Shown in pieces: positions 928-23,981 of a stretch of 64,000 nt of DNA. Every line of letters starts with the position of its first letter. Within the stretch, counting starts at the first letter, position 1. Position numbers and translations under genes: made by a program. Below the pieces are notes generated by a model. That model did no database searches. It had not been told where the DNA came from and saw only the letters and a list, made by a program, of their open reading frames with translations. The DNA is from Medakamo hakoo (lineage: Eukaryota > Chlorophyta > Trebouxiophyceae > Coccomyxaceae), in the NCBI GenBank assembly GCA_026636295.1, contig CP089462.1:806001-870000 (forward strand). The letters run 5' to 3'.

Positions 928-3284
928 TCACGTCGGCACGCCAGGCATGTAAGCCTGCAGGTCGACGTGCACGTTGGCGGCCAAGCGGGCGGCGAGCTCA
1001 TCGGGGACGAGCGACGACCACCGCCCGCCGTCGAGGGCGGAGGCGCCAGCGCCACCCCCGCCCTCCCGGGCCAGCAAGCCCAGGGAGGCGAGCGAGGAGA
1101 CCTGGGTCAGGATGTCGCCCGCCTGGGCGGCGGCGCCCAGGCCGCCGCCGCCGCCGCCGCCGGCGCCGGGCGGCCCGCCGCCGCCGCCCCCGCCCTCTGC
1201 CTTGAGCAAGTGCCAGAAAATGGAGAGCAGGCGCTCCAGGGAGAAGGCGACGGGGTCCCGCCCGCCGGCGGCGGCGGCGCGGGCGTCCGCCCGGGCCGCC
1301 GCCACGCGCGCGCCGCCCGCCCGGCGCCGCCCGCCGCGGAAGGCCGGGTCGAACGTGCGGCGGTCGGCCGACGCCGGCGTCGCGCCCGCCACGTGCGCGG
1401 CCAGGACCAAGAATTTGGTCAGGTACGGCAGTTCCAGGTCCAGGCCGAGGGGGGCGGCGACCGGTCCGGCCGCCGGCGGCGCGGCGGACGCCTTCCCGTC
1501 GGGCGGCGGCAGGGTCCGCCCCGCGTCCAGGGCCGCGCGCGCCGCCCGCACCAGCGGGCGGGCCGCCGCGTTGAGGGCGCCCTCGCTCACCCGGCCGCTC
1601 ACCCGCCCGTCGCGGGCCGGCGCCAGCCAGCGCGGCCACAGCCAGGCCGCGGCCGCCCGCAGGGACGCCACGCCGCCGTCGTCCCGGCCCCAGGCCGGCA
1701 GGACGCAGCCGCGCACCATGCCAGCGTACAGGGCCGGCCCGTCCGTTCCATCCGGCAGGCCGGGCACGGCCTCGCCCGCCCGCGGCCCGTCCCGCGCCAG
1801 GATGGCCAGCAGCTCGGACGGGGAGTAGGCCGGGAAGGCGATGGAGGCGAGTGGGGGGGCGGGGCCGGCCGGGCCGGCTGCCGGCGCCCAGCCAGGGCCG
1901 CACCCGCCGGGCGCGCCGCCCCAGGCGGGCGACCCGATGAGAACCAGGCCGACGGGCGCGCCCGCCGCCGCGATGGCGGCCATGAGGGACCCCACCGCGT
2001 CCACGCCCGCCGCCGCGGCCGCGCCCGTGCCGGCGCCGGGCGACGCCGCGGCCAGGGCGTCGACGTCGTCCAGGACGACGAGCGTGGGCGGGATGGGGTG
2101 CGGGTGCGGGTGCTGCAGGCGCCCGCCCCCGCCGCCGCCGCCGCCCGGCGCGGGCGGCAGGAATTCGGCAAGGTCGGCGACGGAGTCGACGCGGACGTCG
2201 GGCGCGTACCCGTTGGACCGGCGGCGCTTGCGGCCCTGGTTAGTGGTGGGTGGCAGTGTTTTTTTTTTTGTGTGTGTGAGGGTTCTCCAGGCGGGACCCG
2301 GCGCGCGCCGCCTGTTTTGCTTTCCATCTCCAATTACCCGCCCCCTCTCCTCCCAACGCACCATCAGCGCGTCCAGCAGTTGGCGGGCCAGGGCTTTGGG
2401 CGGCGTCGTCGCGCAGCACTTGACGTACACGTGGCGGCGGCCGGCCTCGGCCAGGAGGTCGCTGCGTGTGTTTTTTTTGGTTGATAGGGCGGCGGGAGAG
2501 GTGAGGAGGGCCCGCCCACGCCGTTGAAACCAGCGCGCCGCGCGGCGTCCCATCTTGAATGCCTTGCGCTTTCGCGCGCCGGCCGCGCCGTGCCAAAGCG
2601 CGGGTGTTGTGGTCTTCCCTCACAGCAGCGACAGTCTGTGCCGCCCGCACGACCCATCCAGGGCGGGCGTGCCATCCCTGGCGACCGTTCATGCCCTCCC
2701 AAATAGGGCCCCCCTCCCTGAATGGACACGCCTCGCGCGCGCGCCCTGGGCCTCTTCCCTCTCCCCGCCGAAACCACTCTCTCCTCTTACCGCACGACGG
2801 CCGTCTTGCCCACGGATGGCGGGCCGTGGACCAACACATGCCCCGTCCAGTCGGTGCTCAGGCGCAGGGCGTCTCCCAGCGCGCAGACCTGGGCTTCCCG
2901 GCCCGGGTACCGGGCGGACACGGCGGCCACGGCCTCGCCCAGCGCAAGCGCCGGGTCGGGCGGGCGGGCAACACCGGTCGTCGACGGCGAGCGCGAGCGG
3001 CGGTGCACGCCAGCCGCTGCTGAGCCGGGCGGGGAAGGCGAGCCGGCCGTGGACGGGCGTGGAGCTTCATCGTCTTCACCTCCGCGCAAGGAGGGCGAGG
3101 GCGACGTCGCTCCCCGGCCACGACGGCGGGCCGCGGCCGCGGCCGCGGCCGCGCGGTTGGCCGCGTCGATAGCGGCCGCAGCGGCTGCCGTCGCGGCGGC
3201 CGCTGCGTCCGCGCCGGCGGACCGGGTGGACCGACGCGTCGTCGTGGCTGCTGGTGCGTCGGCCGCGCCACGGGCGGCGGGCAT
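928..3284 (-). CDS. ORC5: Origin recognition complex subunit 5
   Basis: Three exons: 3284-2791, 2461-2362 and 2235-928, giving 633 aa. ORC5 is an AAA+ subunit of the six-protein complex that binds replication origins and loads MCM2-7 in the nucleus. After an Ala-rich N-terminal extension of about 110 residues comes the ORC5 start signature (RYPGREAQV), then Walker A GPPSVGKT; the first intron interrupts just after it at VVR|DLL. Exon 2 holds the conserved Cys segment (VYVKCCATTPPKALARQLL). Exon 3 has the Walker B-like VVLDDVDAL and the C-terminal winged-helix part (ILTQVSSLASLGLL, ending VDLQAYMPG). Donors are GTAAGA and GTGCGT. The ATG at 3284 is the only in-frame start after the upstream divergent promoter. 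The N-terminal Ala tract is encoded by palindromic GGCCGC repeats and is longer than in animal ORC5. It shares a 360-bp head-to-head promoter with the ABC transporter. Confidence 0.88.
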
Positions 3285-3644
3285 GGCAGCGGGGGGAAGG
3301 GCGCGCGCGCGCGAGAACAAAAGCAATGGGAGCGCGGAAACGAGTTTTGATGCCTCGCGCCGTGCTCGCAGCCAAAACGCCCGCCACACCTGCAAGAGAA
3401 AGTCCGGGAGCGCACTGTGCTCAGGTCTTGCGCCCGCCCTGTGCTTTCGGACCCTGCGCCACCCACGCCCACCTCTGCCGCGAGGCCTCCACCACGCATA
3501 GTGGCGCTCAGCTAGGCCGAGCGCACGACTGGAGTGTCCCTGCCTCGTCGCGCCACACACACGCCTCGCCCCAATTCCCGTCCTCGCGCTCGCCCGTTCG
3601 TCTTCCCTTCCTCCCTCCCCCCCTCCCTGTGACCCGCATTGGCC
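3285..3644. promoter_or_regulatory. Divergent promoter region, ORC5 / ABCC transporter
   Basis: 360 bp between the two start codons, so both 5' UTRs and promoters must lie here. No TATA box is evident. The right half is a pyrimidine-rich C/T stretch leading into the transporter start codon. Boundaries are inferred from the CDS only. Confidence 0.5.
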
Positions 3645-6600
3645 ATGGCCGGCGGCTGGTTTGGGCGGCGTGGGACTGGGCCACCTGCTGACGCAGGAGA
3701 TGGAGCGCGGGCGGGCGCCGCGACGGGTGGCGGACCGGCCGACGGCGCGCCGGCGGCGGCCACGCCCGTCGTGGCCGCGGCCCCGCCTGCTGCCGCGGCC
3801 GCGCCGGCCGCGGCCGACCACGAGCAGCGCCAGCCCGTCACCCGCGTCGCGACGCCCTGGCCCAACCTGCCCTCCTTCCTCCTGTTTTCCTGGTTCACGC
3901 CCCTGCTCACCACCGGTTGGCGCCGCCCGCTGGGCCTGCCCGACCTGCCGCACCTGCTGCTCCCACTAACGACGGACGCGTCGGCGGACGCCTTCATTGC
4001 CGCGTTCCAGGCCCGGGCGCCGTCGCCCGAAGCCATGAAGGCTGCAGCCGCGGAAGCGGCGTTGAAAGGGACCGGGGAAGAGTCGTGGCCCGGCGGCGGC
4101 GGCGGCAAGAAGAAGAAGAAGAAAAAGGCGGCGCGTCCAGCGGACGAGGCCGGGCGCGCCGCCGCGGCCGCGGCCGCGGCCGCCGCGGGCAAGTCTGGCG
4201 CCCCGCTCATCGGCGCCCTGTGGCAGCTCAACCGTGGCCGCCTGCTCGGCTCCATGGGCCTGCAACTGGCGCAGGCCGGCATCCAGTTTGCGGGGCCCAT
4301 GCTGCTGAAGCTCATTGCCACCGTGCTCAACTCGCCGACCCCGCCGACGCGCGCCGACCTGGCCCGCGCTTACACGGCCGCGGGCTTCATGTTCCTGGCG
4401 CCCCTGCTCGGCGCCCTGGGCTTTGTGCACGCGTCCCGCCTGGCCGCCACTGCCCAGGTCCGCGTCCGCGCCCAGCTGACGGCGGCGGTCTACCGCAAGG
4501 CGCTGCGCCTGTCCCCCCGGTCGCGGCAGCGCGTCGAGGTCGGCCGGGTCGTCAACATGATGTCGTCCGACGTCAACACGCTGGCCACCTTTGTCTTCCC
4601 CTTTTTCAACCAGCTGTTCAGCGCGCCCATCATGCTGGCCGTGGCCCTGGCCCTGCTCTGGGTCCAGATCCGGTGGGGCACGTTCATCGGCCTGGCCATC
4701 TTGCTGCTCTCCTCCCCCGCGTCCGGCCGGTTCGTGCGCAAGATCACCCAGCTGCGCCGGGCCATGCTCACGCACACGGACGCGCGCGTCCGCCTGACCA
4801 ACCAGTTGCTGGCCGGCATCCGCGTGCTGAAGCTGTACGCGTGGGAAGCCGCGCAGGAGGCGGCGGTGCTGGAGGCCCGGCGCCTGGAGCTGGGGCGGCT
4901 GCGGGCGGCCATCCCGTTCCGGGTCGGCATGCAGACGCTGCTCTTCTCCGCGCCCGCCCTGGGCGCGGTCGCCTCGTTCGCGGCGTACGGGAGCGCGGAG
5001 CCGCAACGCTTCATGCCGCCGCGCATCTTTGCCGCGCTCGCCCTGTTCTCGCTGATGCGCCTGCCGCTCATCCTGCTGCCCTTCACGCTCGTGGAGTTGG
5101 GGAATGGCGTCGTGTCCGCGCGCCGCCTGACGCAGTTCCTGACGATGGAGGAGCGGGACGGCGGCGACGGCCGCGGGTTGGAGCCGCCCACCTGGCCTGG
5201 CGGCCTCGGCATCCAGATCCAGGGCGCCGACTTTTACTGGCCCGAGCCCGGACCGCCCGTGGGCGCGGCTGGCCCGGCCAAGGCCGGGCCGCCGCCGTCT
5301 ACTGCCGCGTCCGACAAAAAGAAGAAAAAGGGGAAGGCAGGTGGGACGGCGGCGTCGTCCGACGGCGGGTCGTCGGCCGTCGCGGTCGACGTCTCGAAAG
5401 CCGGGCCACCCCCGCCATCCGAAGGCGGTGGCTCGTCGGCCGCCCCACCCAAAAAAGACGCCCCGGAACCCGGGTCCCTGGCCGCCCTGCGTGCGTCCGT
5501 CGCGTCCACCCGCGGCGGCGGGGGCGCGCCGCCCGACTTTGACCCGCTGGCGGCCGGCGGCCCCGCCACGTACTGGCTGCGCTCCATCGACCTGGCCGTC
5601 AAGCCCGGCGACCTGGTGTGCGTCGTCGGCCGCGTCGGCTCCGGCAAGTCCTCCCTCATTTCCGCCGCCCTGGGCGAGATGTGCGTGGCGGGCGGGTGCG
5701 TCCGCCTGGGCGGCAGCGTCGCGTACGCGGCGCAGCAGGCCTTTATTGCTAACGCGACGCTGCGCGACAACGTCCTCTTCGGCCGGGGCTTTGAGCCGGC
5801 GCGGTGGGAGGCCACGCTGGACGCGTGCTGCCTGCGGCCGGACCTGGCCGTGTTGGCGGCCGGCGACCAGACCGAAATCGGGGAGAAGGGCATCAACCTG
5901 TCCGGCGGCCAAAAGCAGCGCGTCGCGATTGCGAGGGCCCTGTACTCGGGCGCCGACACCTTCTTGCTGGACGACGTCCTGTCCGCCGTCGACGTCCACG
6001 TCGGCGCCACGCTCTGGTCGGAGGCCATTGTCGGCGGCATGGTGCGGGGGCGCAGCAACGGCGGCGCGCCCGGCGCGGTGCTGATTGCGACCAACCAGCT
6101 GCAATACCTGTCCCGCCCCGAGACGAGCGCCGTGGTGTACCTGGAAAACGGCCGCATCGCGGCGTGCGGCAAGTTCGAGGCCGTTCGGGCGTCGTCGCCC
6201 GGGTTCCGGGCGCTGCTGGAAGATTTCGAGGCCCGCCAAGCCGCCGCTGAGAAAGGGGAGGCGGGTCCATCGCCGTCGCCGCCGGCGGCCAAGCGCGGGC
6301 CGTCGCTCGACCTGACCGGCACCGACCTGGCCGCCCTGCGCGCCGCGTCGCGCGGCGCCTCGCTCGACCTGACGGCAGTCAAAAGGGCGGGCGCCGGGGC
6401 CGCGCCCGGCTCGCCACCGCCGCCGGTGCCGCCGCCGTCCCAACGACCAGCCGCCCTCACTTCCTCCGCCGCCGCCCGGGCCGCCCGCTTCCAGCGCGTG
6501 CCCACGGTCGCCATCGAGCGGGAGGCCCGCCTGGAAGCGTTGCACGACGCGGAAGCGGGCGGCCGCGGCGCGGTGGGGGCGCGCGGCGGCACGGCTGTGC

Positions 6601-17439: not shown

Positions 17440-18776
17440 ATGACCGCAGCGATGCCGTCGACCAACGCATCGGCGTCGCCCCTGTCCCCGGCGCTGCGCC
17501 GCACCTTGGCCCTCGCCTACGGTACCGCCGGCATCTACGCCGCCTACCTCACCCAGGGCCTGGTCCAAGAAAAGCTGGCCACGCGGCGGTATGGCGCGCG
17601 CGGCGACCGGTTTCCTGGGTTGGACGCCCTGCACGGCGTCCAGGTAAGGGGTGGGGGTGGGGGTGTGTGTGGGAGGGGAGGGCCGCCTTTCACAGGGGTG
17701 AGGCCGTGTTTTGAGGGGGGGAGGGGACCCTCACCTCCAGCAGCAGCCAAAAAAAAAAAAAAAACACTCACCACCACACCCATCCTCAACTCCAGGCCAT
17801 CGCCTGCTTCTTCTGGGCGGTCGCCTTGTTAGGCGCGGAGGCGGGCGTCCAAAAGCTGAAAGCGTGGTGGAGCGGGCGCCGGGCAGGTGGCGGTCGGCGC
17901 CGGTCCCCCCGGTCCGCATCCGCGCCCGCCCCACCTCCCCGCCCCCCGCCCTCCGCCTACTGGCGCGCCGGCGCCTCCAACGCGCTCGGCCCCGCCCTGG
18001 GCTACCTCGCCCTCGCCAACATCTCGTACCCGGCCCAGGTCCTGGCCAAGAGCGCGAAAGTGCTGCCGGTGATGGCAGTGGGGACGCTCCTGGGCGGCGC
18101 GGCCTACTCGGCCTTTGAGTACGGCTGCGCGGCCGCCATCGGTGGCGGGGTCGGGCTCTTTGCCCTGGCCACCTCCGCCGCTAAAAAGGGGGGGCACGGC
18201 GGCCCGGGCGGCGGACGCGGTGGTTCGCTGGCGTCCCCCAACGCCCCGCTCGGCTACGCGCTGTGCCTGGCCAACCTCGTCCTCGACGGGTACACCAACG
18301 CGGCCCAGGACGCCATCAACCGCCGCTGGCCGGGCGGGGCGACCGCCCTGTGGACCATGGCCTGGATGAACGCGTGGTGTGGGGCGTACAACGCGGCGTA
18401 CCTGGCGCTCACCGGCGCGGGCGGCCGCCTCGCCGCCTTTTGCTCCGCCCACCCGGCCGCCGCCGCGGACGTCGCGCTGTTCTGCGCCTGCGGCGCCGCC
18501 GGCCAGCTCTTCATCTTCTTCTTGATCCGGCGGTTTGGGTCCACGACCAACGCCCTGGTCACCACCACCCGCAAATTCTTCAACATCCTGCTGTCCGTCG
18601 CGTGGCTGGGCCACCCGCTGAACCGGGGGCAGTGGGCGGGCGTCGCGAGCGTGTTTGGCGGCCTGCTGGCCAGCGCGGTGGCGAAAGGGAACAAGCACAA
18701 GGCACACGGGCCTGGTGGCAGCGGTGTGCGCGGCTCGGCGCGGGCGGCGTCCACGCGGAGGGCGAAGGCGGCGTGA
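17440..18776 (+). CDS. UDP-galactose/UDP-glucose transporter-type nucleotide-sugar transporter (SLC35B1 class)
   Basis: Exons 17440-17643 and 17796-18776, 394 aa. It belongs to the drug/metabolite transporter fold (UAA family), which exchanges UDP-sugars for UMP across ER or Golgi membranes. About ten hydrophobic segments are visible. Diagnostic family blocks are YAAYLTQGLVQEKL at the start, ALGYLALANISYPAQVLAKSAKVLPVMA, LVLDGYTNAAQD and LVTTTRKFFNILLSV. After the second helix is a basic/Pro insertion (about residues 88-110) missing from relatives. The C-terminus ends with Lys/Gly/Ser residues and could carry an ER-retrieval signal, but no clean KKxx is present. The intron carries an A16 run just before the acceptor. 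It is followed on the same strand by an unknown membrane protein and a Golgi-type glycosyltransferase. Confidence 0.87.
17749..17764 (+). repeat. A16 run inside intron
   Basis: Sixteen A residues about 30 bp upstream of the acceptor of the UDP-sugar transporter intron. It is the longest A/T homopolymer seen in the window. Confidence 0.9.
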
Positions 18777-21022: not shown

Positions 21023-23981
21023 ATGAACCCGTCCCCCGGCTCCCGCCGACGCACCACGCCTGTCCGCCCTGCCGGCCTGGAGGTGGGCGGCTACGCATCG
21101 CCCGATGGGTCCCGCCGTCGTGGGCGCCTGCCGGTGTGGGCCAGGTGAGCCGAGCAGCGCGAACGCGAATGCCGCCCCCCCCTCCCGCGCTGCGACCGAC
21201 CCCGCCCGCGCCCTCTCCTCACCTGTTCCATCCATTCCCCATCCATTCCCCCTCCCAAAAAACACCCACAGCGTCGCCGCCGTCACGGTCGCCATCCTGG
21301 TCTTTGCCTCTTGGTCCGTGTCCGGGCCGGGCGTGGGTGGAGCCGGAGGCATTCAAGCGTCGTCGCCGCCGTCGTCGTCGTCGCACTCTTCATCTCATGA
21401 CCCCGACCCGAAAGCCGCGGCCGCGGGCGCGGCCGACATGGGCGAGCCGAAGGGACCGGCCGAAGCCGCTGATTTCGCGCCGCCCGCTGGCAAGGCCGGC
21501 AAGGCTGGTGCGGCCACCGAAGACATCCCGGCCACGGCGGACGACGCGGCGGGGACGGCGTGCGCGCTGCCGGCGACCGGCGCGGACTACCCGGGCCGCG
21601 TCCTGGCGGCCGGCGGGTCCAACCCGAAACCCACGGCCGTCGCGTGCCGGGACGCGTGCCGGGCGACGGCCGGGTGCAATTCGTGGGCCTGGTGTTTTGG
21701 CGAGGACGCGTGCGTCGGGCCGGACGGCGTGGAATTCCCGCGCCTGGGCTGCCTGCTCGCTTCTGAACCGCTCGCGCCCTGGGGCCGGCCGTCGGCGTCG
21801 CTGGAGGCCGCGTACAAGCCGTCCACCTACATCTCCGGGTACGTCAAGGTCCGCCAACCGGACCAGCTGACGTTTGTGCGGCTGCACTCGGCGCCCACGC
21901 CGCGCGTCGTGCTGGCCATGGAACTGCCGCACCGGTCGTCCGGGTGCCCGACCCCGGGGGGCGACACCATCAACCTCCTGTCCCTGCTCAACAAGAAGGA
22001 CTACGCCCGCTGGCATTCGTACGACGTCGCGGTGGCGACGGAGACGCTGGCGCCGGACCTGCACAACGTCGGCGGGGCGCCCGGCGGGCCCATCAACATG
22101 CTGCCGTTCCTGGCGCGCCTGCTCGACGAAACGCCGCCGGCCGAGGCCGACTGGATCCTGTACATGGCGCCCGACCTGACCATCGACGACCTGACGTTCA
22201 CGTTTCCCTTTGAAAGCTACGCGGGCAAGGACCTGGTCCTGGTCGGCGACGCGGCCAAGGTCCGGGCGGGCGACGTGCTGGGCGTGGACCTGGGGTCCGT
22301 CCTGGTGCGCAACTCGCCCTGGTCGAAGAAACTGCTCAAAAAACTCATCGAAAAGGCGGCGGCCACGCCCGCGCCGCCGCCGGAGAAGGCCTACAAAACC
22401 AACCCGGTCTCCCAAGCCATCATCGACGTCGTCGCGGACGAGCCGGCCCTGCTGGACCGCGTCCGCTTCGAGACGGATTTCTGCATGGCGTGCGACTGGC
22501 GCCGCATCGACCTGAAGCGCGCGGGCCAGGTCTTTGACAAGACCAAGGCCTGGGGCGAGGCCAACAAGAATTGGAAGCTGTTCACGACGCGCTTCTTCGA
22601 CTGCCAGACGTGCTGGGGCGGGGGCGGCATGGACGCCGACCTGGCCGGGCAGTGCACGGCCGCGGCGTGGGAGCACTACGAGTTTGCGTACTGCCGCTTC
22701 CACCGCAACGTCCTGGCCGCGGCCGCGGCGGCCAAGCGGGGGCCGCCGCTGCACCACCTGTCGCCGTCCGACCTGCCCATCCCTGAAGGCATGAAGAAGC
22801 GCGGGCTCACGCCGCCGCCGCTGTACGACTTCAAGGGCGCGGAAGCGGCCGCGGGCGGCAAGGTGCCCAACCCCGTCCTCCAGCCCGCCAAGTCCCACGT
22901 CACCAAGACGGGCCAGGCCTGTTACGAGGCGTGCGTGGCCAACCCCAAGTGCTCCTTCTGGGTGTGGTGCGCGGCCGACTCGTCCCGGGGCGGGTGCGAC
23001 GACGGCGGCGAGTGGAGCGGGCGCTTCCCCGCGGGCGGGTGCGAGCTCATGTCGCTGACGCCGGGCCTGAAGCCGACGCAGTGGGACCGCGGCCCGGCCT
23101 TTTCGACGTTCGAGTCCGGCTACGTCACGCCCGCCCACCCGCTGCACGCCCGGCCGGCCGGCGGGCTGCCCACCCCGCCGGCCGACGCGGCCTCCACCCG
23201 CATCGCCGTCCTGACGGGCATCGCCGGCACGCCCTGCTCCACGCCCTGGGGCGACTACTTCCTGGAGCTGGCCCTCAAGAACAAGGCGGACTGGGCGCGC
23301 CTGCACGGGTACGAGCTCCACCAGATGGCGCAGACGCTGGACGCGTCCATCCGCCCCGGCGCCTGGCAAAAGGTCGCCCTCCTCCAGCGCGCGCTCAAGA
23401 CCATCCCGCCCTCCCGCGCCGAGTGGTTGCTATGGCTGGACATGGACGTCGTCATCGGCGACGTCGCGACCACCTTCCCGCTGGACTGGTACACGGGCAA
23501 GGACCTGGTCATGTGGGGCTTCGCCGACAAGATTGCGGCCGGCGACGTCCACGGCATGAACTCGGGCGTCCTGCTGCTGCGCAACTCCGACTGGACGCGC
23601 GCGCTGGTGGACGCGGTCGCCGAGTACGGCCGGTACCCCGTCGACCTGAAGGTGGAAGAAAAGCTGGCGGCCGCCCTGCCATCGTACGATGTCGGCATGT
23701 ACGAACAAAACGTGCTGACGTACCTGTTCAAGACGGACCCGGGTCGCTGGCTGCCCAAAGTCCGGTTCGAGGACGCCCTGTCCATGAATGTGTGGTACAA
23801 AAAGGTGTACGAACCCGACGTTGAACAGCCCGCGTTCATCGTCCACTTCGCCGGCTGCCAGGTGTGCAATGGTTTCCACCCGGAAAAGCTGGGGGAATGC
23901 GATGCGGAGTACGTGCGCAACTATGCTGAATCAGTGGTGCGGTTGGAGCGGGCCGCGAAAAAAGTCGGGGGGTTGAAGTGA
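21023..23981 (+). CDS. Type II membrane glycosyltransferase with two PAN-like and two GT34-like domains
   Basis: Exons 21023-21144 and 21272-23981, 943 aa. Residues 1-40 are basic and cytosolic. The splice join completes one transmembrane anchor (SVAAVTVAILVFASW), giving the type II topology of Golgi transferases. A Ser/Ala/Pro stem follows. Then come a Cys-rich PAN/Apple-like module (about 138-232), a GMA12/MNN10-like GT34 domain (about 245-540), a second PAN-like module (about 575-665) and a second GT34 domain (about 690-940). GT34 enzymes move xylose or galactose from UDP/GDP-sugar to glycans in the Golgi. The second copy has the metal-binding LDMDVVIGD (Asp764, Asp766), MNSGVLLLRNS and a C-terminal HFAGCQ. 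The first has YMAPDLTIDD at that place, so the first Asp of DxD is Ala340; only Asp342 remains. Copy 1 is therefore probably non-catalytic. Acceptor and linkage are unknown. Confidence 0.85.

Follow-up and report, generated by a model that had tools for sequence, protein, structure and literature searches.

We analysed a 64,000-nucleotide window (the whole stretch of DNA, to which positions below refer unless a contig or another locus is named) from positions 806,001 to 870,000 of contig CP089462.1 of Medakamo hakoo, a trebouxiophyte green alga for which 16 non-organellar contigs and a GC content of 72.7% have been reported (PMC9871001). The window contains a gene on the plus strand (21023..23981) for a 943-residue protein in which two PAN domains, PAN1 and PAN2, alternate with two glycosyltransferase domains of family GT34. 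Both halves belong to GT34, and the N-terminal transferase domain (copy 1) has altered most conserved catalytic positions, while many other conserved ones are retained. Copy 1 is predicted to be catalytically dead, and the C-terminal domain (copy 2) is the predicted catalytic half.

The gene consists of two exons. Exon 1 (21023..21144, plus strand) starts with an ATG at 21023 and encodes the basic N-terminal tail and the first part of the hydrophobic anchor, approximately residues 1-41, with a GC content at third codon positions (GC3) of 0.82. It is followed on the same strand by an intron of 127 bases (21145..21271), which is of the GT...AG type (GTGAGC...CACAG) and the removal of which joins the exons in frame and without an internal stop. 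Exon 2 (21272..23981, plus strand) encodes the rest of the anchor, the stem, PAN1, GT34 copy 1, a linker, PAN2, GT34 copy 2 and the stop codon; from 21272 onwards its frame is uninterrupted up to this stop, which ends at 23981. The coordinates given in the original prediction (21272..23981) span exon 2 alone, with exon 1 and the first part of the anchor lying upstream of them; the length of 943 residues that it gave is matched by splicing exon 1 to exon 2. Read by eye, the spliced sequence has a basic N-terminal tail and a single hydrophobic anchor-like stretch, suggestive of a Golgi-type, type II membrane protein with a presumed location in the Golgi.

In blocks of 60 codons, GC3 was 0.85-0.98 from 21633 to 23792, the linker included, and dropped to 0.75 in the last block of the gene, as compared to 0.61-0.72 in the intron and in the two flanks measured, whichever the phase. 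Because GC3 is high through the linker and low in the intron and flanks, the two halves are taken to be one coding exon, and the earlier claim of a continuous coding exon across both halves is borne out by the open frame and by GC3. An antisense open reading frame of 659 residues overlaps the gene at 21390-23369; long antisense frames are expected at this GC content.

The two halves were compared to Pfam profiles at the curated cut-offs of 23 bits for PF05637 (GT34) and 27 bits for PAN_4 (PF14295). Matched on its own to PF05637, copy 1 (21906..22610, plus strand, residues ~253-487) scored 33.1 bits (E = 6.1e-8) and copy 2 (23193..23876, plus strand) scored 91.6 bits (E = 8.7e-26), which places each half above the cut-off for GT34, as had been proposed. 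The proposal of PAN modules held for PAN1, the core match of which (21582..21698, plus strand) scored 33.6 bits in a six-frame genome search and 29.5 bits in the half protein, while the core match of PAN2 (22899..22994, plus strand) is borderline, with 27.3 and 23.7 bits, respectively. The whole protein matched PAN_4 in two stretches with 43.7 bits, and PAN1 gave no match against PDB sequences. Aligned to each other, the two transferase domains share 79 of 269 residues (29%; 107 bits). Their best matches among PDB sequences are plant xyloglucan xylosyltransferases (XXTs), namely XXT5 for copy 2 (E = 5.2e-29) and XXT1 for copy 1 (E = 1.2e-9). In a fold search with predicted models, the rows of which were filled with transferase domains, XXT1 was the best match of both copies, and the resemblance of the predicted structure of copy 1 to XXT1 is consistent with the GT-A fold that had been suggested for it.

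A six-frame search of the genome identified only one other GT34 locus (C3:246539-247405, minus strand), which encodes a single-domain paralog with an intact DSD motif. An alignment was made of five sequences: copy 1, copy 2, the paralog, XXT1 and XXT5. The offset of the XXT1 numbering was set by D227, and it fits Phe203 as given in PMC9201394, while Ile391 of the same source is Pro by this count. The active-site features described for GT-A enzymes are DxD, xED, the G-loop and the C-His (PMC7185993). The DxD motif is intact in copy 2, as D764-M-D766 (23439..23447, plus strand), and degenerate in copy 1, as A340-P-D342 (22167..22175, plus strand), which follows strand 335-339 in the model; both were found by alignment at the residues originally stated. 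The predicted loss of the first Asp in copy 1 (D227 to A in XXT1 numbering) is strengthened by the changes W204 to I, K206 to M, N268 to D, H377 to R and G380 to D, so that copy 1 reads I-x-M for W-x-K, D-x-G for N-x-G and R-F-x-D for H-F-x-G. It thus lacks the set of intact DxD, W-x-K, N-x-G and H-F-x-G motifs expected of a catalytically competent GT34 domain. D229 and Q319 are retained, with the residue preceding Q319 being S in copy 1 and D or E in the other aligned sequences. None of the other altered columns (T155, P161, D197, W225, L304, Y324, L325 and E361) could be named as catalytic. Copy 1 also retains the four cysteines that are invariant in the five sequences and the motif N-K-x-D-x-x-R-x-H, which fits with its fold having been maintained.

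For each sequence in turn, columns invariant in the four others were scored. Copy 1 keeps 25 of its 41 such columns and changes 16, two of which are gaps in a deleted loop, as compared to 25 of 30 kept by copy 2, 25 of 33 by the paralog, and 25 of 27 each by XXT1 and XXT5, counts on which the closeness of these two to each other bears. Every column belongs to one set only, and copy 2 and the paralog retain the columns changed in copy 1 by construction. Since the sets are disjoint, the informative comparison is that of 16 changes in copy 1 versus 5 in copy 2 and 8 in the paralog.

D764-M-D766 and H899 of copy 2 align with D227/D229 and H377 of XXT1, and we take H377, D317 and K382 to be active-site residues of the latter. 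Synthesis of xyloglucan was considered as the function of the tandem protein and not adopted, because this polymer is restricted to the Streptophyta (PMC3797821) and because Phe203 of XXT1, which has been linked to C5 of xylose (PMC9201394), has no equivalent in copy 2, where the position is occupied by Ala.

We propose that copy 2 would be the catalyst, a metal-dependent retaining transferase that uses a nucleotide sugar and works as a Golgi-type (type II) enzyme, and that copy 1 would be a non-catalytic GT-A fold retained for a structural job. Most likely, copy 1 would serve as a permanent built-in partner that packs on copy 2 as XXT subunits pair, or else as a platform that holds the acceptor. 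The most likely role of the PAN modules would be to direct the enzyme towards an acceptor, a wall glycoprotein or a glycan. We infer the pairing of the two copies, the acceptor role of the PAN modules and the identity of donor and acceptor. As a whole, the explanation of a catalytic copy 2, a structural pseudo-transferase in copy 1 and acceptor-steering PAN modules is considered somewhat probable, while for the more specific reading, that of a GT34 enzyme-pseudoenzyme pair on one chain with interleaved PAN acceptor readers, in which the dead copy would be a permanent activator or an acceptor-holding partner, we see even chances.

Several observations weigh against this explanation. At two positions, D317 and K382, copy 2 has residues other than those of XXT1 (Tyr and Gln), and the same is true of the paralog (Arg and Gln, respectively), because of which the activity of copy 2 is likely, not assured, and our confidence in the explanation was set slightly lower. 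The enrichment of active-site positions among the losses in copy 1 is modest (Fisher tests, p = 0.089 for 7 columns and 0.040 for 8 columns), the columns having been picked post hoc, after the alignment was seen. The structural models are weak, with mean predicted local distance difference test (pLDDT) values of 48.0 and 45.1 and a predicted template modelling (pTM) score of 0.33 for the tandem, and because of the latter we make no claim on how the two transferase domains pack. It has also been reported that some GT-A enzymes without DxD or C-His remain active (PMC7185993). Finally, the algal sequences compared come from one species.

Regarding the origin of the tandem, a genome-wide PAN_4 search gave 11 matches, two of which are PAN1 and PAN2. 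Among the 11 PAN segments compared, which include two matches on contig C8 and of which the first segment at locus L011 was chosen by eye and not by Pfam, PAN1 has PAN2 as its best hit and vice versa (36% over 96 residues, E = 7e-9; next best 2e-5). Pairwise reciprocal best hits were used instead of a PAN tree, the supports of which were weak (nine segments, without the two C8 matches). Also, both transferase copies carry two inserted residues ahead of the DxD strand, and because of these two observations a duplication of the module is favoured. The alternative is a fusion with a different GT34 lineage, in which copy 1 would derive from the ancestor of the single-domain paralog; we consider it possible, if doubtful. 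It is consistent with copy 1 being about equally similar to the paralog (105 bits) and to copy 2 (107 bits), with stretches that are common to copy 1 and the paralog and missing from copy 2, and with a GT34 tree of five or six sequences in which, with weak support (SH-like approximate likelihood-ratio test, SH-aLRT, 65-73; bootstrap 50-58), copy 2 joins the XXTs and copy 1 falls towards the paralog. It does not sit well with the reciprocal best hits of PAN1 and PAN2, with the insertion common to both transferase copies or with the paralog locus, near which no PAN match was listed in the genome-wide search. Internal duplication, the origin suggested in the original prediction, is thus only indirectly supported, and the GT34 tree decides neither for it nor firmly against it.

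With respect to function, we rank as the main rival that copy 1 is still an enzyme, one that is metal-independent like some members of GT6 and GT14, in which Arg481 at the C-His position perhaps neutralises the diphosphate, so that the protein would be a dual transferase like LARGE1. This is considered unlikely: W-x-K, the N of N-x-G, the G of H-F-x-G and a loop are altered too, and because of these changes besides DxD the whole donor pocket is taken to have diverged. Moreover, other GT6 structures, which are presumably metal-dependent, were found within 1 Z unit (10.2) in the fold search. No better are the prospects of copy 1 decaying neutrally while carried in frame with a useful copy 2; the 29% identity between the copies and the 16 of 41 altered columns, two of them in the deleted loop, would be expected from decay, but the frame of copy 1 is open throughout, with GC3 of 0.88-0.97 across it, and the four common cysteines and 21 other common columns are retained. 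That the halves are two genes with separate transcripts, as a full PAN-transferase module in each might suggest, or an artefact, is highly improbable given that there is no stop between them, that GC3 is 0.95 in the in-frame linker, and that an assembly coverage of 246.8x and 98.6% of RNA reads mapped have been reported, both as genome-wide figures (PMC9871001).

We compared the tandem protein, with its predicted pseudo-transferase domain, to known systems. To our knowledge, XXTs contain a single GT34 domain and lack PAN domains. XXT1 and XXT5 both retain DSD, whereas the tandem protein has two GT34 domains on one chain, in one of which catalytic positions have been lost. XXT1, XXT2 and XXT5 (PDB 6bsu and 9p3j) belong to the same Pfam family, in which the best sequence and fold matches of both halves are found; a homodimer was seen in the crystals of XXT1, and heterodimers among XXTs have been reported (PMC9201394), and chains of XXT2 and XXT5 are both present in PDB 9p3j. 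A precedent for a pseudo-transferase partner is COSMC, described as a paralog in which the motifs are lost and which supports an active homologue, T-synthase (GT31; PMC7185993), but it is a separate polypeptide and belongs to another family. Likewise, LH3 (PLOD3) has been described with two GT-A-like domains per chain, of which the accessory (AC) domain was judged to be non-catalytic (PMC6082870); unlike in the tandem protein, the active domain comes first, a hydroxylase is on the same chain and the domains are not GT34. ExAD (GT47) is a type II Golgi transferase with EGF-like modules, and these cysteine-rich modules have been proposed to recognise the acceptor or a partner (PMC5371791). It differs in its family, in the type of module and in having a single transferase domain. 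LARGE1 also has two transferase domains in one protein, which belong to other families than GT34. In contrast to what is proposed here, it is called a bifunctional (dual) glycosyltransferase (PMC9746966).

Among the open-access papers listed in literature searches, none was found to describe a GT34 domain combined with PAN or two GT34 domains in tandem of which one is degenerate, and none, as judged by titles and the starts of abstracts, was about a fusion of a glycosyltransferase with a PAN/Apple domain. The earlier statement that no described enzyme with the order PAN-GT34-PAN-GT34 is known thus agrees with this literature, which is weak evidence of novelty. If confirmed, the tandem would be a case of a pseudoenzyme domain built into a GT34 protein and would make it testable how paired GT34 subunits assist each other, which is debated for plant XXTs. 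It would then correspond, within a single molecule, to COSMC/T-synthase or to the XXT heterodimers, and this in a species that also has a fusion of PAN with HPAT.

The latter fusion was identified at another locus (L026, C13:571000-580000). An HPAT (hydroxyproline O-arabinosyltransferase) domain begins in the frame that holds two PAN_4 stretches, which are parts of one PAN domain (C13:574984-575178); this first portion of HPAT scored 80.8 bits, and the rest, encoded by the following exon frame, 196.1 bits. This is another PAN-glycosyltransferase fusion in the genome, and it speaks in favour of the explanation proposed here. HPAT was also found at a second locus and PF03407 (GT77-type) at two, which suggests that hydroxyproline O-arabinosylation machinery is probably present. 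The tandem protein also suggests that PAN modules may be used to target secretory-pathway glycosylation in this ultrasmall trebouxiophyte.

A weak PAN_4 match (25.9 bits, below the cut-off) was obtained at C13:310079, in locus L020 (C13:305000-314000). The frame with this match directly follows the exon frame of a GH5 domain (Cellulase, 40.9 bits) on the downstream side, and the coordinates of the two frames overlap (2541-4013 and 3478-5403 of the locus); a second PAN-like segment was seen by eye. The locus possibly encodes a secreted GH5-PAN-PAN protein, a fusion that we infer. In total, 20 exon frames near L020, L021, L022, L024 and L025 and after L026 were scanned for partner domains, leaving out the C8 locus (L023). 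Pfam matches were obtained in 5 of the 20, and no catalytic partner was found at the other scanned PAN loci in the frames tried. The PAN segments at L007 (865-1935), L008 (minus frame) and L011 (1501-1629) are close kin, with 36% identity over 67 residues between L011 and L008 and 37% over 97 residues between L011 and L007. At L007, a hydrophobic anchor-like segment precedes the PAN domain and no catalytic domain was found in the frames tried, and the frame at L008 runs on into a long Ala-rich region.

Within the window, a UAA-family nucleotide-sugar transporter (PF08449, 135.6 bits) is encoded at 17826-18773 on the plus strand, the same strand as the tandem gene and about 2.2 kb upstream of exon 1; in a eukaryote, such adjacency is weak evidence. 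No relative was found in the viral contigs and phage records scanned. The only bacterial locus from the genome-contig scan encodes a GT34-family protein (L018, 2857-3588) in a metagenome-assembled genome of Chthonomonadales (Armatimonadota), which is the one genome among the 291 Armatimonadota genomes searched that has PF05637. This distant protein retains W-x-K, DSD and N-x-G.
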